64,000 bases of DNA from Prostheceraeus crozeri (lineage: Eukaryota; Platyhelminthes; Polycladida; Euryleptidae): the NCBI GenBank assembly GCA_907163375.1, contig CAJQUW010011501.1, positions 434,001 to 498,000 of the forward strand, in the 5' to 3' direction. Both the position numbers and the translations under genes were made by a program. The first letter of the stretch is position 1. Every line of letters starts with the position of its first letter. The notes under the pieces are model-generated. The model was not told the DNA's origin and searched no databases. It worked only from the letters and a program-made list of their open reading frames with translations. Positions 54,131-64,000 of the stretch are shown piece after piece.

Positions 54131-55690
54131 TAGAGTAGTAAGCAAGTGACAAACACTCGACCGGCGCGCCCCCCCTCTGGCACGGCAGAGTGTCGTGGTC
54201 GGCCGCCGTGGTGCTTCGGGTCTGACCCCCCCCCTCTGGAACGACAGAGGTTGTGGTCTGTCGTGGTGTGCCGGCCAGGTTGGTTCACGTTCACAACATG
54301 TTCGCTGACTCCCCCCCCCTCTGGAACGACAGAGATTGTGGTCTGTCGTGGTGTGCCGGCCAGGTTGGTTCACGTTCACAACATGTTCGCTGACCCCCCC
54401 GCCTCTGCAACGACAGAGTGTGAGACTCGGGTGAGTTGGTCCGACCGCCTGCTTGACGTGGGCGACCGTCCAGGTTGACGTGGGCGACCGTCTAGGTTGA
54501 CGTGGGCGACCGTCTAGGTTGACGTGGGCGACCGTCTAGGTTGTCGTGGATGGTGAAATGGTTGCCAGATTCGGATTCAGCGTAAAATTCTGCATCGGTA
54601 GGGTGATTTCCAGCTCAATCGGCGAGAAAAAATTTTTCTTCAAAATTTTAACAGAGTTAGAATTTGGGACGTTTTGGTGTGTAGCGCCCAAACGAAGCAT
54701 CGGATGAGAAAACGGAGGCCAGATTCGGATTCAGCGTGAAATTCTGCATCGGTATGGTGAGTTTCAAGTCAATCGGAGAGAAAAATTTTCGCTGACGTCC
54801 CCCCCCTCTGGACAGCTTGCTTCGATTTTGGCTTCCAGTGGACGGATTTTGTCGTGCGATAGCTCGTTTGAAAGCTAAGAGTGAGACAAATTCAGTGAAA
54901 GAATCGGCTTGTTCCTATCTGTCTTCGTTCAAAAGTTAGAGCGGTTACAAGATTTTAGGTCGGAGCTCGCTCACCTGAAAAAATCCTAAGTGTCAGAGTG
55001 GCTTTGTATGGGTAAAATTTTGAAAATTTTCCAAAGTGTGGAATTTCGACCTGGGACCGTCACCAAAACATTTTTCATCAAATTTCACTGACCTCCCCCC
55101 CCCTCTGGACAGCTTGCTTCGATTTTGCCTTCCAGTGGACGGATTTAGTCGTGCGATAGCTCGTTTGAAAGCTAAGAGTGAGACAAATTCAGTGAAAGAA
55201 TCGGCTTGTTCCTATCTGTCTTCGTTTAGATGTGAGACGCCATTTAAGATTTTGGGACATTGGCGAAAAACGACAGAGTTAGAATTTGGCACGTTTTGGT
55301 GTGTAGCGCCCAAACGAAGCATCGGATGAGAAAACGGAGGCCAGATTCGGAATCAGCGTGAAATTCTCTATCTGTATGGTGAGTTTCAAGTCAATCGGCG
55401 AGAAAAAGTTTCGCTGACCCCCCCCTCTGGACAGCTTGCTTCGATTATGACTTCCAGTGGACGGATTTTGTCGTGCGATAGCTCGTTTGAAAGCTAAGAG
55501 TGAGACAAATTCACTGAAAGAATCGGCTTGTTCCTATCTGTCTTCGTTTAGATGTGAGACGCCATTTAAGATTTTGGGACATTGGCGAAAAACGACAGAG
55601 TTAGAATTTGGGACGTTTTGGACTCTAGCTTCAAAACGAAGCATCGGATGGGAAAACGGATTTCAGATTTGGAATCAGCTTGATGTTATT
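54131..55690. repeat. GC-rich nested tandem repeats, likely Polinton terminal region
   Basis: Three layers of repeats occur. An about 85-bp unit (CTCTGGAACGACAGAG...ACATGTTCGCTGAC) recurs from about 54226 to 54410. A 22-bp unit GTTGACGTGGGCGACCGTCT recurs four times at about 54451-54540. A unit of about 300 bp starting CTCTGGACAGCTTGCTTCGA occurs at about 54806, 55103 and 55427. Runs of C followed by CTCTGG stand before most units (seven sites). Internal repeats are known in Polinton terminal inverted repeats. ORFs through this block reflect the repeats. Confidence 0.75.
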
Positions 55691-55937: not shown

Positions 55938-56615
55938 GACAAAATGGCGGTCAAACGTTACAAGGTTCGCTACGGTCAGATCATCTACAACTGAGGCCAG
56001 TGGAAGAAACAACCAAGGTACATAATCCTACACCGCTACAGCGTAAATTTAAACAAGTCTTGCGTTATGACGATCATAGCGTAGTACTCCAAACGGGAAT
56101 GCTCCCTTCCACGGATGTCAAGATAATGCGCAATCAGTATGGGGACTACATACTGATCCCCGTGAGTCCGTACATTCGCCACCAACTTGATATTATTGAG
56201 GAGTACGTGACATTAAAAATGGACATTCCTACTCCTCTTGCTCAAAGAGTGGAAGGCGAGAGATGACAAAGATACTCCCTATAGAAAGATTTGGGATGGT
56301 AATCACATTTGCCTACCGGTATCACATTGGTGTACTTACTATAAGAAGGAGGGAGATCAATCAATAGCCATCAGATGTGATGAGCTCGGAGAAGGTACTT
56401 GGGATATCCTTTTCAAAGTGAATGGGCTATATTATGGTCAACACAAGGATAATAAAATAGCCTCTCTCTCCATGCATATGGAATCCATCCTATATATTCC
56501 AAAACCACCCAACGTGGACGACATAATTGATCAAATCCTTAACAGCAGTGGTACGAAGCGCAAGTCGGAGAAGAATGCTACATCAAAACGCAAATCAAAG
56601 AAGGAGAATTACTAG
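55938..56615 (+). pseudogene. Polinton protein of unknown function, one frameshift
   Basis: A frame open through 56266 shows VLRYDDHSVVLQTGMLPSTD and QYGDYILIPVSPYIRHQLD. From 56238 an overlapping frame carries on with WKARDDKDTPYRKIWDGNH, ILFKVNGLYYGQHKDNK and a basic tail (KRKSKKENY), ending at 56615. The two overlap by about 29 nt, so a single-base indel probably split one gene of about 200 residues. I do not recognise the family. The VNGLYYGQHKDNK segment with a basic tail faintly suggests a nucleic-acid-binding protein. The start may lie in the upstream spliced ATG; no ATG stands at the start of the frame. Confidence 0.5.
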
Positions 56616-56775
56616 CCCTTTCCTAACTCTACCCTATGACAATTCGCTTATGTGCTTTGAGTGTCGTAGACGTGGTCTTATTAGATACATTTTACTTCTT
56701 CGTTGCCATCATATCATTTGTGTATTTTGTCGTGAAAAGCATCGATGTAATTCTTCATTTTGTAATATGTTATAG
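56575..56775 (+). CDS. Small RING-like zinc-finger protein
   Basis: Starting at ATG 56575 the ORF has 66 residues; a shorter start at 56650 keeps the finger. The Cys/His spacing is C27-x2-C30, C44-x-H46-x2-C49-x2-C52, then C58 and C63, close to the C3HC4 RING pattern with a compact last pair. It overlaps the end of the previous gene in another frame. RING proteins are commonly ubiquitin ligases. With so short a domain, function and even expression are uncertain. Confidence 0.45.
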   Translation: MLHQNANQRRRITSPFLTLPYDNSLMCFECRRRGLIRYILLLRCHHIICVFCREKHRCNSSFCNML

Positions 56776-57384: not shown

Positions 57385-57443
57385 TGTTACTATGAGAAGA
57401 GTTGTTGTTTTCATGCAATGGATGGGTTAGATAAAGGGCGATC

Positions 57444-58179: not shown

Positions 58180-58230
58180 TACCTATGCAAATGTGGTAAA
58201 GATAGGTTTTAGCAAAGACTAACACGGAAA

Positions 58231-58587: not shown

Positions 58588-58618
58588 TTATGCAAATGTT
58601 GAATCTCAAAGTAATAAA

Positions 58619-59236
58619 ATGGATTTCAGACTTCAATGTGATAAAGTTCTGACTGTATCAGGTCCATCTCATGCAGGTAAAACTGTTTTCACGCTGAATT
58701 TATTGGATAAAAGAAGGGAGTTGTTTAAGGAACCTATCAATCGAGTGATTTGGTGTTATGGTATTTATCAACCGTCGCTGTTTCAGGAATTGCAAAGTCG
58801 CAACTTTATTTGACATGAAGGAATTATTCCAGTGGATAAACTTCAGTCTAATGATGTTGTTGTATTGGATGATTTATTAAAAGAAAGTAAGAATTCAAAA
58901 GATGTTACAGATATGTTCACTCGCGCAGCACACCATAAAAGGTGTTTTATCATCTATATTACACAAAATTTGTTTCCTCATGGAAAAGAAGCTCGTACAC
59001 GAAACCTGAATACACACTATTATGCTATTTTCAAGAATCCGCGAGATAAAAGTCAATTTGAAATTTTAGCGCGACAAGTTGCACCAAGAGGATCAAAAGC
59101 CTTAATTGAAATTTTTCAAGCAGCTACTGAAAAACCATACGGTTACTTATTCATTGACTTTACGCAAGAGTGTCCGGAAGAATTTAGATTTCGAAGTGAT
59201 ATTTTGAAAACTCCCATGATTATCTACAAACTATGA
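58619..59236 (+). pseudogene. FtsK/HerA-type genome-packaging ATPase, one in-frame stop
   Basis: The frame starts at ATG 58619 and spans 206 codons including stops. Walker A is GPSHAGKT at residues 15-22. Walker B is NDVVVLDDLL and a sensor-like FIIYITQNLF follows, all typical of the A32-like packaging ATPases that pump DNA into capsids. A TGA at 58811-58813 interrupts after the SRNFI segment, and the same frame simply continues. A CGA to TGA change, common at methylated CpG, would explain it. No other break is seen. The stop codon overlaps the next ATG (ATGA). Confidence 0.85.
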
Positions 59237-59926: not shown

Positions 59927-60140
59927 ATGAAGCAGATGTGTTGCTTGCCATGTAATGAGCCGCCAGAGGTGAATGTCGTTGTCACTTGCACTTGCTGCGC
60001 CAGCTCTCATAATGAAACCCTAAGCAATGTGAACACGTCGCAAAACCGCTAAAGCTAAATGCTGCAGTTGTTGTAAATGTAGAAAGGCAAGAAAACAAAA
60101 AGATGAGAAGGAGGAAAAAGAGTCAGTCGTCATCGACTGA
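59927..60140 (+). pseudogene. Small Cys-rich peptide upstream of integrase
   Basis: ATG 59927 opens MKQMCCLPCNEPPEV and VTCTCCASSHNE, stopping at 60052. In a neighbouring frame, KCCSCCKCRKARKQKDEKEE continues to 60140, overlapping the integrase start. Together they look like one Cys-rich peptide broken by a frameshift. Short Cys-rich ORFs in this position occur in other Polintons as far as I recall. No function can be assigned. Confidence 0.4.
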
Positions 60141-61192
60141 ACGTTTGAAGTCAATCTATTATGATGTAAAACATCCGGCAGGATTTGCATCTATCAAGGA
60201 ATTATCAAAAGCGAGTGGTCTTCCACAATCACAAGTGAAACGATGGTTAAAGGGTCAGGCTACCTATACACTCCACAAACAAGCGAAAAAGAAGTACCGC
60301 ACCCGCCATTATATTGTTCATGACATCGATGAACAGTGGCAAGCAGATTTGTGTGATGTTGCCTCCATTTCAAAACATAACTCGGGCAATAATTTTATTT
60401 TAACCGTCATTGATATTTTCTCGCGTTATGCGTGGGCTCAACCTTTAAAAACTAAAGAAGGGAAAGGAGTAGCAAAAGCATTCCAAACAATTTTTCGAGA
60501 AGGTCGCATTCCAAAAAGAATTCAGAGTGATCAAGGAAAAGAGTTTGAAAATCAGCATGTGACAAGATTATTTGAGAGGCATGACATTGAGTTGTTTAGT
60601 GTAAAGAGCGCTTATAAAGCTGCACTCGTTGAACGTTTTAATCGCACATTAAAAAATCGTCTGTGGCGACATTTTACTGCCAACTTGACACAAAATTGGA
60701 CAAAGGTTCTACAAGATACACTCCATGCCTACAATCACTCTATCCATCGTTCTATTGGACTCAGACCAGTAGATGTAAATGCTGACAATGTAGATAAAGT
60801 GCGCGAATCGATTCCAACGTAAACGCACTCATGTGAAAAGTGATGTGAAAATTGGCGATAAAGTTCGTATCTCAAAAGTGAAAAGTGTTTTTGCTAAAGG
60901 GTACCTCCCGAATTGGACAGAGGAGGTATTTACAGTATCAAGGATTAATCAAAAGGACTCTCCGACCACCTACAAGTTGAAAGATTACGATAACGAAGAA
61001 ATTGAGGGTAGCTTTTACCGCGATGAGATTGAGGTAGTCACTGAAAGTGAAACATATTTGGTAGAGAAAATCATTCGATGTAAAAAACGGCAAGGTGAAG
61101 AATGGTGTCTTGTTAAATGGACTGGTTATCCTTCAAGTATGAACTCTTGGATGCGTCGTGCCGACATCTTTCATCTAAGTGATCGACAGTGA
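60103..61192 (+). pseudogene. INT: Retroviral-type (RVE) integrase with C-terminal chromodomain, one frameshift
   Basis: The first frame (60103-60822) holds an N-terminal helical domain and the DDE core. Likely catalytic residues are D82 (QADLCDV), D143 (IQSDQGKEF) and E177 (ALVERFNRTLKNR), with 33 residues between the last two. After the stop at 60822 an overlapping frame goes on with VKIGDKVRISK and a chromodomain near its end (ETYLVEKIIR, CLVKWTGYPSSMNSW). This order is that of Polinton integrases, which insert the element and may read histone marks. The break near 60815 separates the two halves, so the copy is probably non-functional. Confidence 0.88.
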
Positions 61193-61233
61193 TTCATGCA
61201 AAGTTGTAACTAACAATGTTTAGGGTTTGAGCT

Positions 61234-61601: not shown

Positions 61602-62994
61602 GTGCGATCTTCAGTCAAAAGGCATTCACGCAAAACCGTCGTAGAGGCTCTAATCATTCATTCAGGCGCTAAACCAACGACGCTGCTTATAACTTCTAAT
61701 CAATGTGGAGATAGTTTAAAACTTCCGGTTTTTGTGTTGTTTGAGATCAACAAGCCATACAGACAGAATATTCTTAGTTCAAGTATTGTAATTATCATCC
61801 TCGAACAGCTGAGAATGCTGGACCCATTGAATTTTGTTATTCCTGGGTGTAGTGAAGACTACATAGATTTGAGTTTATGCGATGCTTGATTTGAGATTTA
61901 GAATTCAGCAAGCACATTGAACTGCTATTGACGAGCACAAAAGTTTGGTCTGAACCATTAACCATTGACTACATTACTTGCGCGATGTTTCTCAAAAACG
62001 AGTGGATAGCACAAGGTTGAAGGTGGTCAAAGCGATAATCCCTAATAAATCATATTTCAATCATGTATCACAGTTTCATCCAGCAGCACAAAAAAGTCAT
62101 ATGGAAGCCATGGGATGGTACAGAGATGAAGCAGGAAAATTTGATGTTGAAACAAACAGTGGCTTTGTAAAGCGATCTGCTATGATTAAAGATAGTAGAG
62201 TATGTCAGCTATATGGTCCGCTGAATTTAGACTTCTTTAGACAGTCAAAGTTTTTACTCTGTAATACCAGCATGCGACTCAAGCTGACATTGAATAAGCC
62301 TGAATTTGCGCTGAATGCATTTGCTAAAGTTGACAATTTTAGAATTCATGTGGAAGATATTGCACTTTACATTCGTCGAGTAGTACCGAATCCAAGTGTC
62401 ATTAGAGGGCATGCTGAAGGCCTTAACCGCCAAAATGCCATTTACCCCGTTCAGCATACAAAGCTTCTCACCTTTACAATTCCGAAAGATCAAAAGAGTT
62501 TCATGAAAGATGGCCTCTTTCCATCGGAAGCACCGAAGCTCCTCATGGTGGCAATGGTTGAAAATGATGCATTTAATGGTAATATAAAGAAGAATCCTTT
62601 CAATTTTAAACACAATCAGTTAAGTGAAATTGCTTTACGTGTAAATGGTGTGAGTCATCCTGGTCCACCCTACAAACCAGATTTTGCTTCGGATCAATTT
62701 ATGCGCAGTTATGTTGATTTTATGGATGTCTTTGGCTTTTACAATACGGATGACACCAACGGACTGACTATGAAAGAGTTTAAGAGTGGATATACTATTT
62801 ATGCATTTGATTTGACTGCTGACAGCGATATTAGTGCACCCTATCGTCAAGCGAACGTGCCTCATAATATTCGTTTGGATTTGACGTTCAAAAGAACACT
62901 ACCTGAGACGATCAATGTATTAATTTATGCAGTCTTCGATTCAAATATTGAAATTACAAAGTATCGTGACGTGATTCTTCAGTATAATCGTTAA
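61602..62994 (+). pseudogene. MCP: Double-jelly-roll major capsid protein (F54H12.2-like), broken near the N-terminus
   Basis: The main frame (61978-62994) opens at a TTG, not an ATG, so it is N-truncated. It contains GWYRDEAGKFDVETNSGFVK, EDIALYIRRVVPNPSVIRGH, NDAFNGNIKKNPFNFKHNQL and GYTIYAFDLTADSDIS. These match the family known from C. elegans F54H12.2 and other Polinton capsid proteins. The missing N-terminal part is visible in an upstream frame ending at 61889 (DPLNFVIPGCSEDYIDLS). Between 61889 and 61978 no frame is clean, so at least one indel or stop is present. The last base of its stop codon is the first base of the protease ATG. Confidence 0.85.
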
Positions 62995-63455
62995 TGAGTT
63001 GGTTGACTGCTGACGATATTAAGACTAAAGTGCAGCGTAATGCAGACGAAGCGACGTTGAAAGCTTTCGATAATGTCTATTCACTCGATACCTTACCACC
63101 TGCAGTAAATCACTATCCCATCTTTATTGTGCTAAACACTCATTCACAGAATTTAGGCGGTGAGCATTGGAAAGCGATCTTTATTGGAGAAGACCGACGT
63201 GGTGAACTATTTGACTCTCTTGCTCAACCTCCAAATATACCAACACAGCAGTGGTTGAGAAAACATACGCGTCAATATCAGCGAAATGAACGCATACTAC
63301 AACATCCACTTTCATCAACGTGTGGTGCTTTTGTACTGTACTTCATCTTAAAACGTTTACATGTATCTCGATTTGCATCTGTTATTCAAAACTTTTCATG
63401 TAATCCATCCTCTAATGAAAAAATGATTTGTAAGTTCTATCATGATTTGAAATAA
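62994..63455 (+). CDS. PRO: Adenain-like capsid maturation cysteine protease
   Basis: The 153-residue ORF is intact and starts at ATG 62994, overlapping the capsid stop by one base (TAATG). Catalytic candidates are H58 (GGEHWKAIF), D74 (ELFDSLAQ), the oxyanion Gln Q103 (LQHPLSS) and C110 (SSTCGAFVLYFI). Their order and spacing match the adenovirus/Polinton ULP1-related protease, which cleaves capsid and core proteins during particle maturation. It is followed at once by AATAAA (63451-63456). Confidence 0.92.
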   Translation: MSWLTADDIKTKVQRNADEATLKAFDNVYSLDTLPPAVNHYPIFIVLNTHSQNLGGEHWKAIFIGEDRRGELFDSLAQPPNIPTQQWLRKHTRQYQRNERILQHPLSSTCGAFVLYFILKRLHVSRFASVIQNFSCNPSSNEKMICKFYHDLK

Positions 63456-63487
63456 AAACATCATGTTGGAAAAAATTGTTTTTTATT
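63451..63487. terminator. Back-to-back polyadenylation signals between convergent genes
   Basis: AATAAA on the plus strand (63451-63456) overlaps the protease stop. TTTATT (63482-63487), AATAAA on the minus strand, overlaps the stop of the TBP-like gene. Only 27 bp separate the two coding ends. This compact layout is typical of small DNA virus genomes. Confidence 0.6.
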
Positions 63488-64000
63488 TTACAATCCGCTG
63501 GGTACGTACATACTCAATGAGATAGTCTAGGATCATATTTGCTTGTACATGAGATTTTAGTCCAGTAATGATCACTTTACTATTATGAAAGATTGCCACA
63601 TGCACAGGTAACCAACAACTAATGAGAGCTGCAGGAAAAAGTTCGGGTTCATAACACAAACTGTAACTGCTGGTACGAATCTTCAAAAATGATAGACTGT
63701 CACTCAATTGAGTAGAGATCACCATATTGTCCACAGTCAGATTCGACATCACACACCTCTCCCTCTTCCATATCCGACGTAGTAGTCTTTGTAGCTCTAA
63801 GCGCATTGACTGCGCCGATGAATGAGAAAGGGCGCCGAGAATCTGTACAGTCCCATTTGGGAAGAGTTGAAGATTCCGTGAATTGTTCATCTTCACCACT
63901 AACATTTGAGGACGGCCCGGGTAATACTTGCTGTTTGGAAGCTGTTGGTGTAATGTTGTGAGATCGATTTTGGTGTAGAGTCTGAAGCGACGGAGAATGT
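63483..64000 (-). CDS. TATA-binding-protein-like protein encoded by the Polinton, 5' end outside the window
   Basis: The minus-strand frame is open from the window edge to TAA at 63485-63483 (at least 171 codons). An internal ATG at 63905 is probably not the true start, because homology begins upstream of it. Two repeats are seen, as in TBP. Lobe 1 runs from IDLTTLHQQLPNSKYYPGRP through LQLFPNGTVQILGALS. Lobe 2 runs from LTVDNMVISTQL through SLCYEPELFPAALI and HVAIFHNSKVIITGLKS. YEPELFP is identical to a TBP core motif. Of the four DNA-kinking Phe positions, three appear kept; lobe 1 has Pro in place of one. TBP binds TATA boxes to start transcription, so this could direct the element's own promoters. 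Host TBP is longer at its N-terminus and more strongly conserved, so a plain host copy is unlikely. Confidence 0.8.
   Translation of the reverse strand, partial: ILRRFRLYTKIDLTTLHQQLPNSKYYPGRPQMLVVKMNNSRNLQLFPNGTVQILGALSHSSAQSMRLELQRLLRRIWKRERCVMSNLTVDNMVISTQLSDSLSFLKIRTSSYSLCYEPELFPAALISCWLPVHVAIFHNSKVIITGLKSHVQANMILDYLIEYVRTQRIVK

Follow-up and report, generated by a model that had tools for sequence, protein, structure and literature searches.

The TATA-binding protein (TBP)-like gene at the end of the window (the whole stretch of 64,000 nucleotides of Prostheceraeus crozeri DNA analysed here) belongs to a Polinton-type element, and its product is identified as a TBP by profile match and predicted fold. 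Within the window the gene is represented by its last 171 codons and stop codon (63483..64000, minus strand; PF00352 match). Extended past the window (locus L009), the frame between its two flanking stops is 234 codons long; the start ATG was chosen by fit to relatives and lies 28 nt beyond base 64000, which takes the full gene as far as C9544:498028 and gives a product of 181 aa. As the preliminary description of this DNA had stated, the minus frame is uninterrupted (63483-63998 open) and is separated by 27 bp from the convergent protease gene (protease ORF end 63455, TBP stop codon start 63483). The same description regarded many of the neighbouring genes as broken, which applies to the integrase, presumed capsid and presumed ATPase frames but not to the adjoining protease, which is open. 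Beyond that description, we found an overlapping upstream ORF with a predicted Pur-alpha/PC4-type fold, invariant changes at DNA-contact positions and a recurrent non-TATA upstream element.

The identity of the gene was checked by profile searches and structure prediction. PF00352 matched the window frame in two stretches (E=1.9e-17, 63.3 bits), in agreement with the two TBP lobes claimed earlier, and scores of 63.3 and 70.1 bits exceeded the curated cut-off of 22.9; the NCBIfam TATA-box-binding protein models gave matches that were all under those models' own cut-offs. The motifs YEPELFP, HNSKVIITG and PNGTVQILG, which had been read from the translation, are all present in the frame. The 181-aa protein was modelled as the TBP fold alone, with the pseudo-symmetric two-lobe saddle predicted and without the herpesvirus-type N-terminal domain that binds the Pol II CTD. 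The pN/pS of the gene was 0.26 in its non-overlapping part, a figure that few changes underlie.

The COX1 frame of this genome is open under the invertebrate mitochondrial code and under other codes too, in keeping with a probable invertebrate. Copies of the element were searched for in the 2.05 Gb assembly, and the TBP genes read in DNA fall into three families: A (window, L009, L011, L012 and L014), C (L005, L061 and L062) and B, with TBP identities of 40% between A and B and 41% between A and C. Families A and C are the fuller elements and have an identical gene order: PolB-like gene, two PY genes, upstream ORF, TBP, convergent protease, presumed capsid, 152-aa ORF, integrase, a further ORF and presumed ATPase. 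TBP is found in the same place beside the protease in both. Because the order capsid-protease-TBP-upstream ORF-PY is common to these two diverged families and the protein has 248 relatives, TBP was assigned, as first proposed, to the Polinton rather than to the host, whose own TBP exons sit elsewhere, on contig C9306.

In the window, the protease (Ulp1/adenain-like; 62994..63455, plus strand) matched PF02902 with E=0.0012 and 19.2 bits, just under the cut-off of 20.7, which its C-family orthologue exceeded (Peptidase_C48, PF02902; 7.1e-5, 23.2 bits). The presumed major capsid protein gene (61718..62994, plus strand) is interrupted and was recognised by tblastn to an open 428-aa copy in L011. 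The retrovirus-type integrase with chromodomain (60037..61192, plus strand; rve E=6e-11) is likewise interrupted; the open copy in L011 gave rve 2e-10 and Chromo 6.2e-7, and copies of both A and C exceeded the cut-off for each of the two domains. The presumed packaging ATPase gene (58619..59236, plus strand) consists of two open pieces with weak AAA/A32 matches below cut-off, and this gene gave weak profile matches only. Capsid, PY, PolB and ATPase are presumptive names: the capsid protein had no sequence match in Pfam, NCBIfam or PDB, the PY genes were unmatched by any profile searched, and the PolB-like gene matched DNA_pol_B_2 in a B copy (E=1.7e-4, below cut-off), with no such match in the C frame and none in a PDB sequence search. 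The PolB-like frames include a recombination endonuclease VII-like stretch (L013:7499-8392, minus strand, and L061:2673-5279), matched by PF02945 with E=4.5e-6 in the B copy (above cut-off) and 1.5e-4 in C (below cut-off). Terminal inverted repeats were not found between two stretches of one B copy, and the window's contig ends inside the element. Near the element's left edge, direct repeats (54547-55688) share approximately 68-82% identity with those that a B copy has near its own left edge, and a small cysteine-rich frame (56527-56775), which we take by eye to be RING-like, has a counterpart in family B.

Family B retains left-end genes, the upstream ORF, TBP and PolB pieces. Integrase, ATPase, capsid, protease and PY genes had no match at E 1e-4 in the neighbouring loci L059 and L060, together 18 kb, nor in the B copies L010, L013, L056, L057 and L058; a capsid-less Polinton derivative was seen at L059/L060, L013 and L010. 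The B copies L056, L057 and L058 (C6222, C1764 and C381) form inverted pairs with TBP and the partner ORF on each arm and PolB pieces between, and these are genuine inverted dimers or else artefacts of long-read assembly. The genome contains at least 150 matches to the family B TBP, 2 of the 150 scored having an internal stop and 148 having none; an environmental TBP used as query also gave at least 150 matches (7 with a stop), some of which may coincide with loci of the first genome TBP match list, and 228- and 220-aa frames among them represent further families or subfamilies. Capsid matches numbered at least 98, all 98 of them open. Copy numbers are lower bounds, since 150 candidates were scored, best first, and such lists are biased towards intact copies.

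A profile of the A, B and C TBPs recovered 248 proteins at E<=1e-5 among 1055 candidates; the best 120 of these all contain the Pfam TBP domain and come from contigs of up to 20 kb. When the best 120 of the 248 TBP relatives were compared with the best 120 of 309 capsid relatives, four contig sizes of at least 3 kb occurred in both lists, against a mean of 0.32 and a maximum of 3 with one list offset, from which we infer that TBP and capsid are linked on some environmental contigs; the environmental proteins come without their DNA, so equal contig size is the whole basis of this linkage. Protein P0122, from a 10.3-kb JGI contig, is a listed 100% match to the A-family partner ORF, and P0121 and the capsid relative P0129 (99%) come from contigs both 12,876 in size, which argues that the family A element or a sister occurs in environmental DNA. 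Scans of IMG/VR used a single TBP, the TBP alignment and the presumed capsid protein as queries, and none of them yielded a confirmed relative; nor was one found in phage records or prokaryote genome contigs. In a 65-row tree, a 100/100 branch parted 61 Polinton-type TBPs from host TBP and TLF exons and from yeast and M. jannaschii TBP; A, B and C fell in different parts of the clade, with B and C within one subclade of ten rows. The tree tool flagged long branches, which make the origin of the clade unreadable from this tree, and giant-virus sequences were outside the 65 rows.

For residue counts, the family profile was aligned to yeast TBP and 61 rows were used, comprising the 3 loci and 58 of the 120 proteins listed. 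The yeast positions named here are DNA contacts, kinking Phe residues, altered-specificity sites (194, 203 and 205) and TFIIB contacts. F99 is replaced by P, L114 by Q, V122 by Q, V203 by H and I194 by L, each in 61/61 rows. At L205 the residue is Ala (57/61) or Ser (4/61), and at T124 it is Leu (46), Met (12) or Phe (3). Conserved in all 61 are F116, F190, F207, N159, V161, T215, E186 and E188; N69 is Asn in 56 rows, with 4 gaps and 1 Asp, and L189 is Leu in 56/61. A canonical TATA-binding TBP has four kinking Phe residues and hydrophobic contacts in the minor groove; of these, F99, L114 and V122 are replaced here and the other three Phe kept. The TFIIB-contact residues of the C-lobe stirrup are present. 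Both lobes are altered at several contact positions and retain others. No paper on the altered-specificity TBP mutant was found in the mostly open-access literature searched.

The upstream ORF overlaps the TBP gene in a different frame: its 3' tail (63700..64000, minus strand) lies over the TBP N-lobe, and its N-terminal domain is outside the window. This partner ORF is common to families A, B and C, and its predicted model has the bbbba-bbbba topology of the Pur-alpha/PC4/Whirly fold, an assignment that came from later fold comparison, in which identity to Pur-alpha, Whirly and PC4 structures was 6-14%. Foldseek gave nothing at E<=0.001 for Pur-alpha, Whirly or PC4, and the corresponding Pfam families had no match in 12 members. 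A PC4 identity suggested by eye was dropped, there being no match to Pfam PF02229, as was a uS10 identity based on a weak profile match (E=0.0046) that fell to 0.4 once more sequences were added.

Expectation maximisation (EM) was used to search upstream regions, taken as the 80 nt preceding each ATG, of 15 A genes and 13 C genes. The consensus obtained was TtATGCAA for A, TcTAaGCt for C and tTAtGCAA for A+C, with scores of 32.5, 26.0 and 43.6, respectively. Non-overlapping tiles from inside genes gave a mean of 26.4 and maximum of 30.8 for A, 22.3 and 28.5 for C, and 31.8 and 40.9 for A+C, so that C alone is not beyond this control. In a first null for A (20 shuffles, width 8), run with fewer restarts and iterations than the observed search, the maximum was 33.5, above the observed 32.5; a repeat null with 40 shuffles gave means and maxima of 22.5 and 29.8 (A), 18.8 and 24.4 (C), and 25.2 and 37.2 (A+C). 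Overlapping windows inside genes reached a mean of 36.7 and maximum of 47.3 for A+C, a maximum of 36.1 for A, and a mean of 29.8 and maximum of 39.8 for C, a control that we judged to be inflated by the overlap. An antisense run was unusable as a control because the EM search also finds the reverse complement. Matrices were also applied across families, and each scored higher in the upstream regions of the other family than in its gene interiors (A matrix on C, p=0.016; C matrix on A, p=0.0004).

Written as [CT]NA[AT]GCAA, the pattern was found upstream of 8/15 A genes (0/58 inside-gene tiles) and 5/13 C genes (5/89 tiles), counts that are optimistic because the pattern was written once both families had been viewed. 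Restricting the fourth place to T left it in 0/13 C genes, and restricting the second place to the letters of family A (A, C or T) left it in 3/13, not 5. Matches lay between -48 and -29 of the ATG in 6 of the 8 A genes and 4 of the 5 C genes. In the window, the plus-strand elements are TCATGCAA at 61194..61201 (40 nt upstream of the 152-aa ORF) and again at 57411..57418 (33 nt upstream of ORF57435), TTATGCAA at 58588..58595 (31 nt upstream of the ATPase-like ATG) and CTATGCAA at 58183..58190 (48 nt upstream of ORF58213). In family A, one match at -12 of PY2 precedes a downstream ATG by 43-46 nt in three copies; judged by eye, that ATG is the counterpart of the C start. A sister of family A, whose second partner ORF is identical at 99/118 residues, is represented by a 700-nt piece that keeps TTATGCAAA at the PY1 promoter, with differing bases from the element to the ATG. 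The A protease and capsid genes and 8/13 C genes are without the element, and in family B it was found in 0/6 genes. The plain k-mer signal is weak: the top 7-mer, ATGCAAA, was present in 5/21 A upstream regions (an equally frequent 7-mer in 6/200 shuffles), the frequencies of the top A 6-mer and 8-mer were reached in 32/200 and 76/200 shuffles, and the top C 6-mer, AAGCAA, was present in 6/15 regions (reached in 8/200 shuffles).

A canonical TATAAAAG precedes the TBP gene itself in both A and C, at -43 and -46 of the ATG, and 26/30 fetched B copies have TATAAA at -43. In TATAAAAG the bases encode a conserved Tyr-Lys of the partner ORF, so that the box may be a by-product of coding. TATAAA was over-represented upstream of B genes (2/6, shuffle P 0.003) but not of A (2/15, P 0.23) or C genes (2/13, P 0.26).

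Our preferred account is a switch of promoter specificity, in which the Polinton TBP, as a two-lobed saddle, would substitute for host TBP at the element's own promoters; we consider it about evenly balanced between right and wrong. Host TBP would read the canonical TATAAAAG inside the upstream ORF and so turn on the viral TBP, which would then bind a different minor-groove element, probably YNAWGCAA, some 30-48 nt before many start codons, including those of virion-type genes, and early and late timing could follow from this order. The conserved C-lobe stirrup would recruit host TFIIB and Pol II, perhaps with the help of the co-encoded protein of predicted Pur-alpha/PC4 fold. The main difficulty for such a switch is family B, which keeps TBP without virion genes or element; there the protein may serve other genes, act in trans or do something else. 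A more inclusive version, possible but on the whole doubtful, would join these steps into an old, separate lineage of animal-Polinton TBPs, with minor-groove specificity rewritten by Pro/Gln/Gln/His/Leu, virion promoters marked by YNAWGCAA and the TBP gene started by host TBP at the TATAAAAG hidden in the Pur-alpha/PC4-like partner, the whole acting like a sigma-factor switch, and with capsid-less derivatives that may live off or regulate capsid-bearing relatives.

The upstream element might instead be read by a host POU/octamer-type factor, or be due to chance, with the viral TBP using ordinary TATA boxes, which we consider unlikely. The sequence ATGCAAAT equals the octamer core, the C element alone stays within the inside-gene control, and TATAAA is over-represented upstream of B genes, but AAGCAA in C deviates from the octamer and ordinary TATA boxes are not enriched in A or C. 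If the protein bound TFIIB/TFIID partners and not promoters, it could compete with host TBP and dampen host transcription, in keeping with invariant TFIIB-contact residues beside several changed DNA contacts; the equal invariance of the three kinking Phe and of the C-lobe contacts N159, V161 and T215, and the presence of a recurrent upstream element in A and C, make this decidedly improbable. An architectural role in bending DNA for replication or packaging, in place of transcription, would suit the capsid-less family B, where TBP persists beside PolB pieces and 0/6 genes carry the element, and also the retention of the three kinking residues; since bending alone would not call for an invariant TFIIB-contacting stirrup, we give this role little credence. 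That a host TBP was recently captured and drifts as a passenger is scarcely credible and is contradicted by the present results: the window copy does lie among interrupted genes, but 61 members stand on a 100/100 branch (with long branches) apart from host TBP/TLF, yeast and M. jannaschii, the partner ORF is shared by A, B and C and the gene order by A and C, and pN/pS is 0.26 in the non-overlapping part, with few changes.

The ancestry of many eukaryotic DNA viruses is often traced to Polintons. With a TBP of their own and a partner protein, Polintons would possess a promoter switch like that of herpesviruses and, if the more inclusive version is true, the pair would correspond, in compact eukaryotic form and within a transposon, to a sigma-factor switch; the Polinton TBP would also offer mechanistic work a natural TBP of altered specificity, and it is a marker gene for finding such elements. 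The present element resembles Maverick/Polinton and adintovirus elements in its chromodomain integrase, Ulp1/adenain-like protease and PolB-like gene. A PolB with an N-terminal OTU-like domain is described as an adintovirus feature in passages of one paper (PMC11071296). No TBP, TFIID or Pur-alpha/PC4-fold gene in Polintons, Mavericks or adintoviruses, and no mechanism of Polinton gene transcription, was named in the passages of the mostly open-access literature searched, and the term-matched passages of PMC10675990, PMC11071296, PMC11071308 and PMC10120064 name no TBP in such elements. The partner ORF differs from Pur-alpha, Whirly and PC4 proteins in its low identity and its want of a Pfam match.

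With cellular TBPs (PF00352; yeast and archaeal) the Polinton protein shares the two-lobe saddle, three of the four kinking Phe, Asn159, Val161, Thr215 and the TFIIB-contact Glu pair; it differs in its identity of approximately 19-26% in structural alignments, in the invariant P/Q/Q/H/L at F99/L114/V122/V203/I194 and in having no long N-terminal domain. TBP genes of giant viruses and mirusviruses, as described in excerpts of PMC10132985, PMC11464507, PMC4602308 and PMC12085832, are similar in being encoded by a DNA virus; TFIIB genes are named beside TBP in giant viruses in passages of three papers, whereas the Polinton ORFs scanned with Pfam had no TFIIB match. A fold search of BFVD gave 36 matches at E<=0.001 to giant viruses and others, 8-20% identical, and matched Ranid herpesvirus 2 ORF75 (E=8e-6) and elephant herpesvirus U58 (E=0.002). 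The herpesvirus vTBPs (EBV BcRF1, KSHV ORF24 and HCMV UL87) are likewise viral proteins of TBP fold, and unlike them the Polinton TBP is small, consists of the TBP domain alone, has a recognisable TBP sequence and keeps the TFIIB stirrup. According to excerpts of the respective papers, late promoters have a TATT box to which EBV BcRF1 binds (PMC4893493), and KSHV ORF24 takes the place of TBP at late promoters, with an N-terminal domain of its own that binds the Pol II CTD (PMC7498053). Reading of a non-TATA core element, shown for herpesvirus vTBP in the former excerpts, is presumed for the Polinton TBP, and by this analogy the herpesviruses would provide a precedent for the promoter switch that is close in logic.
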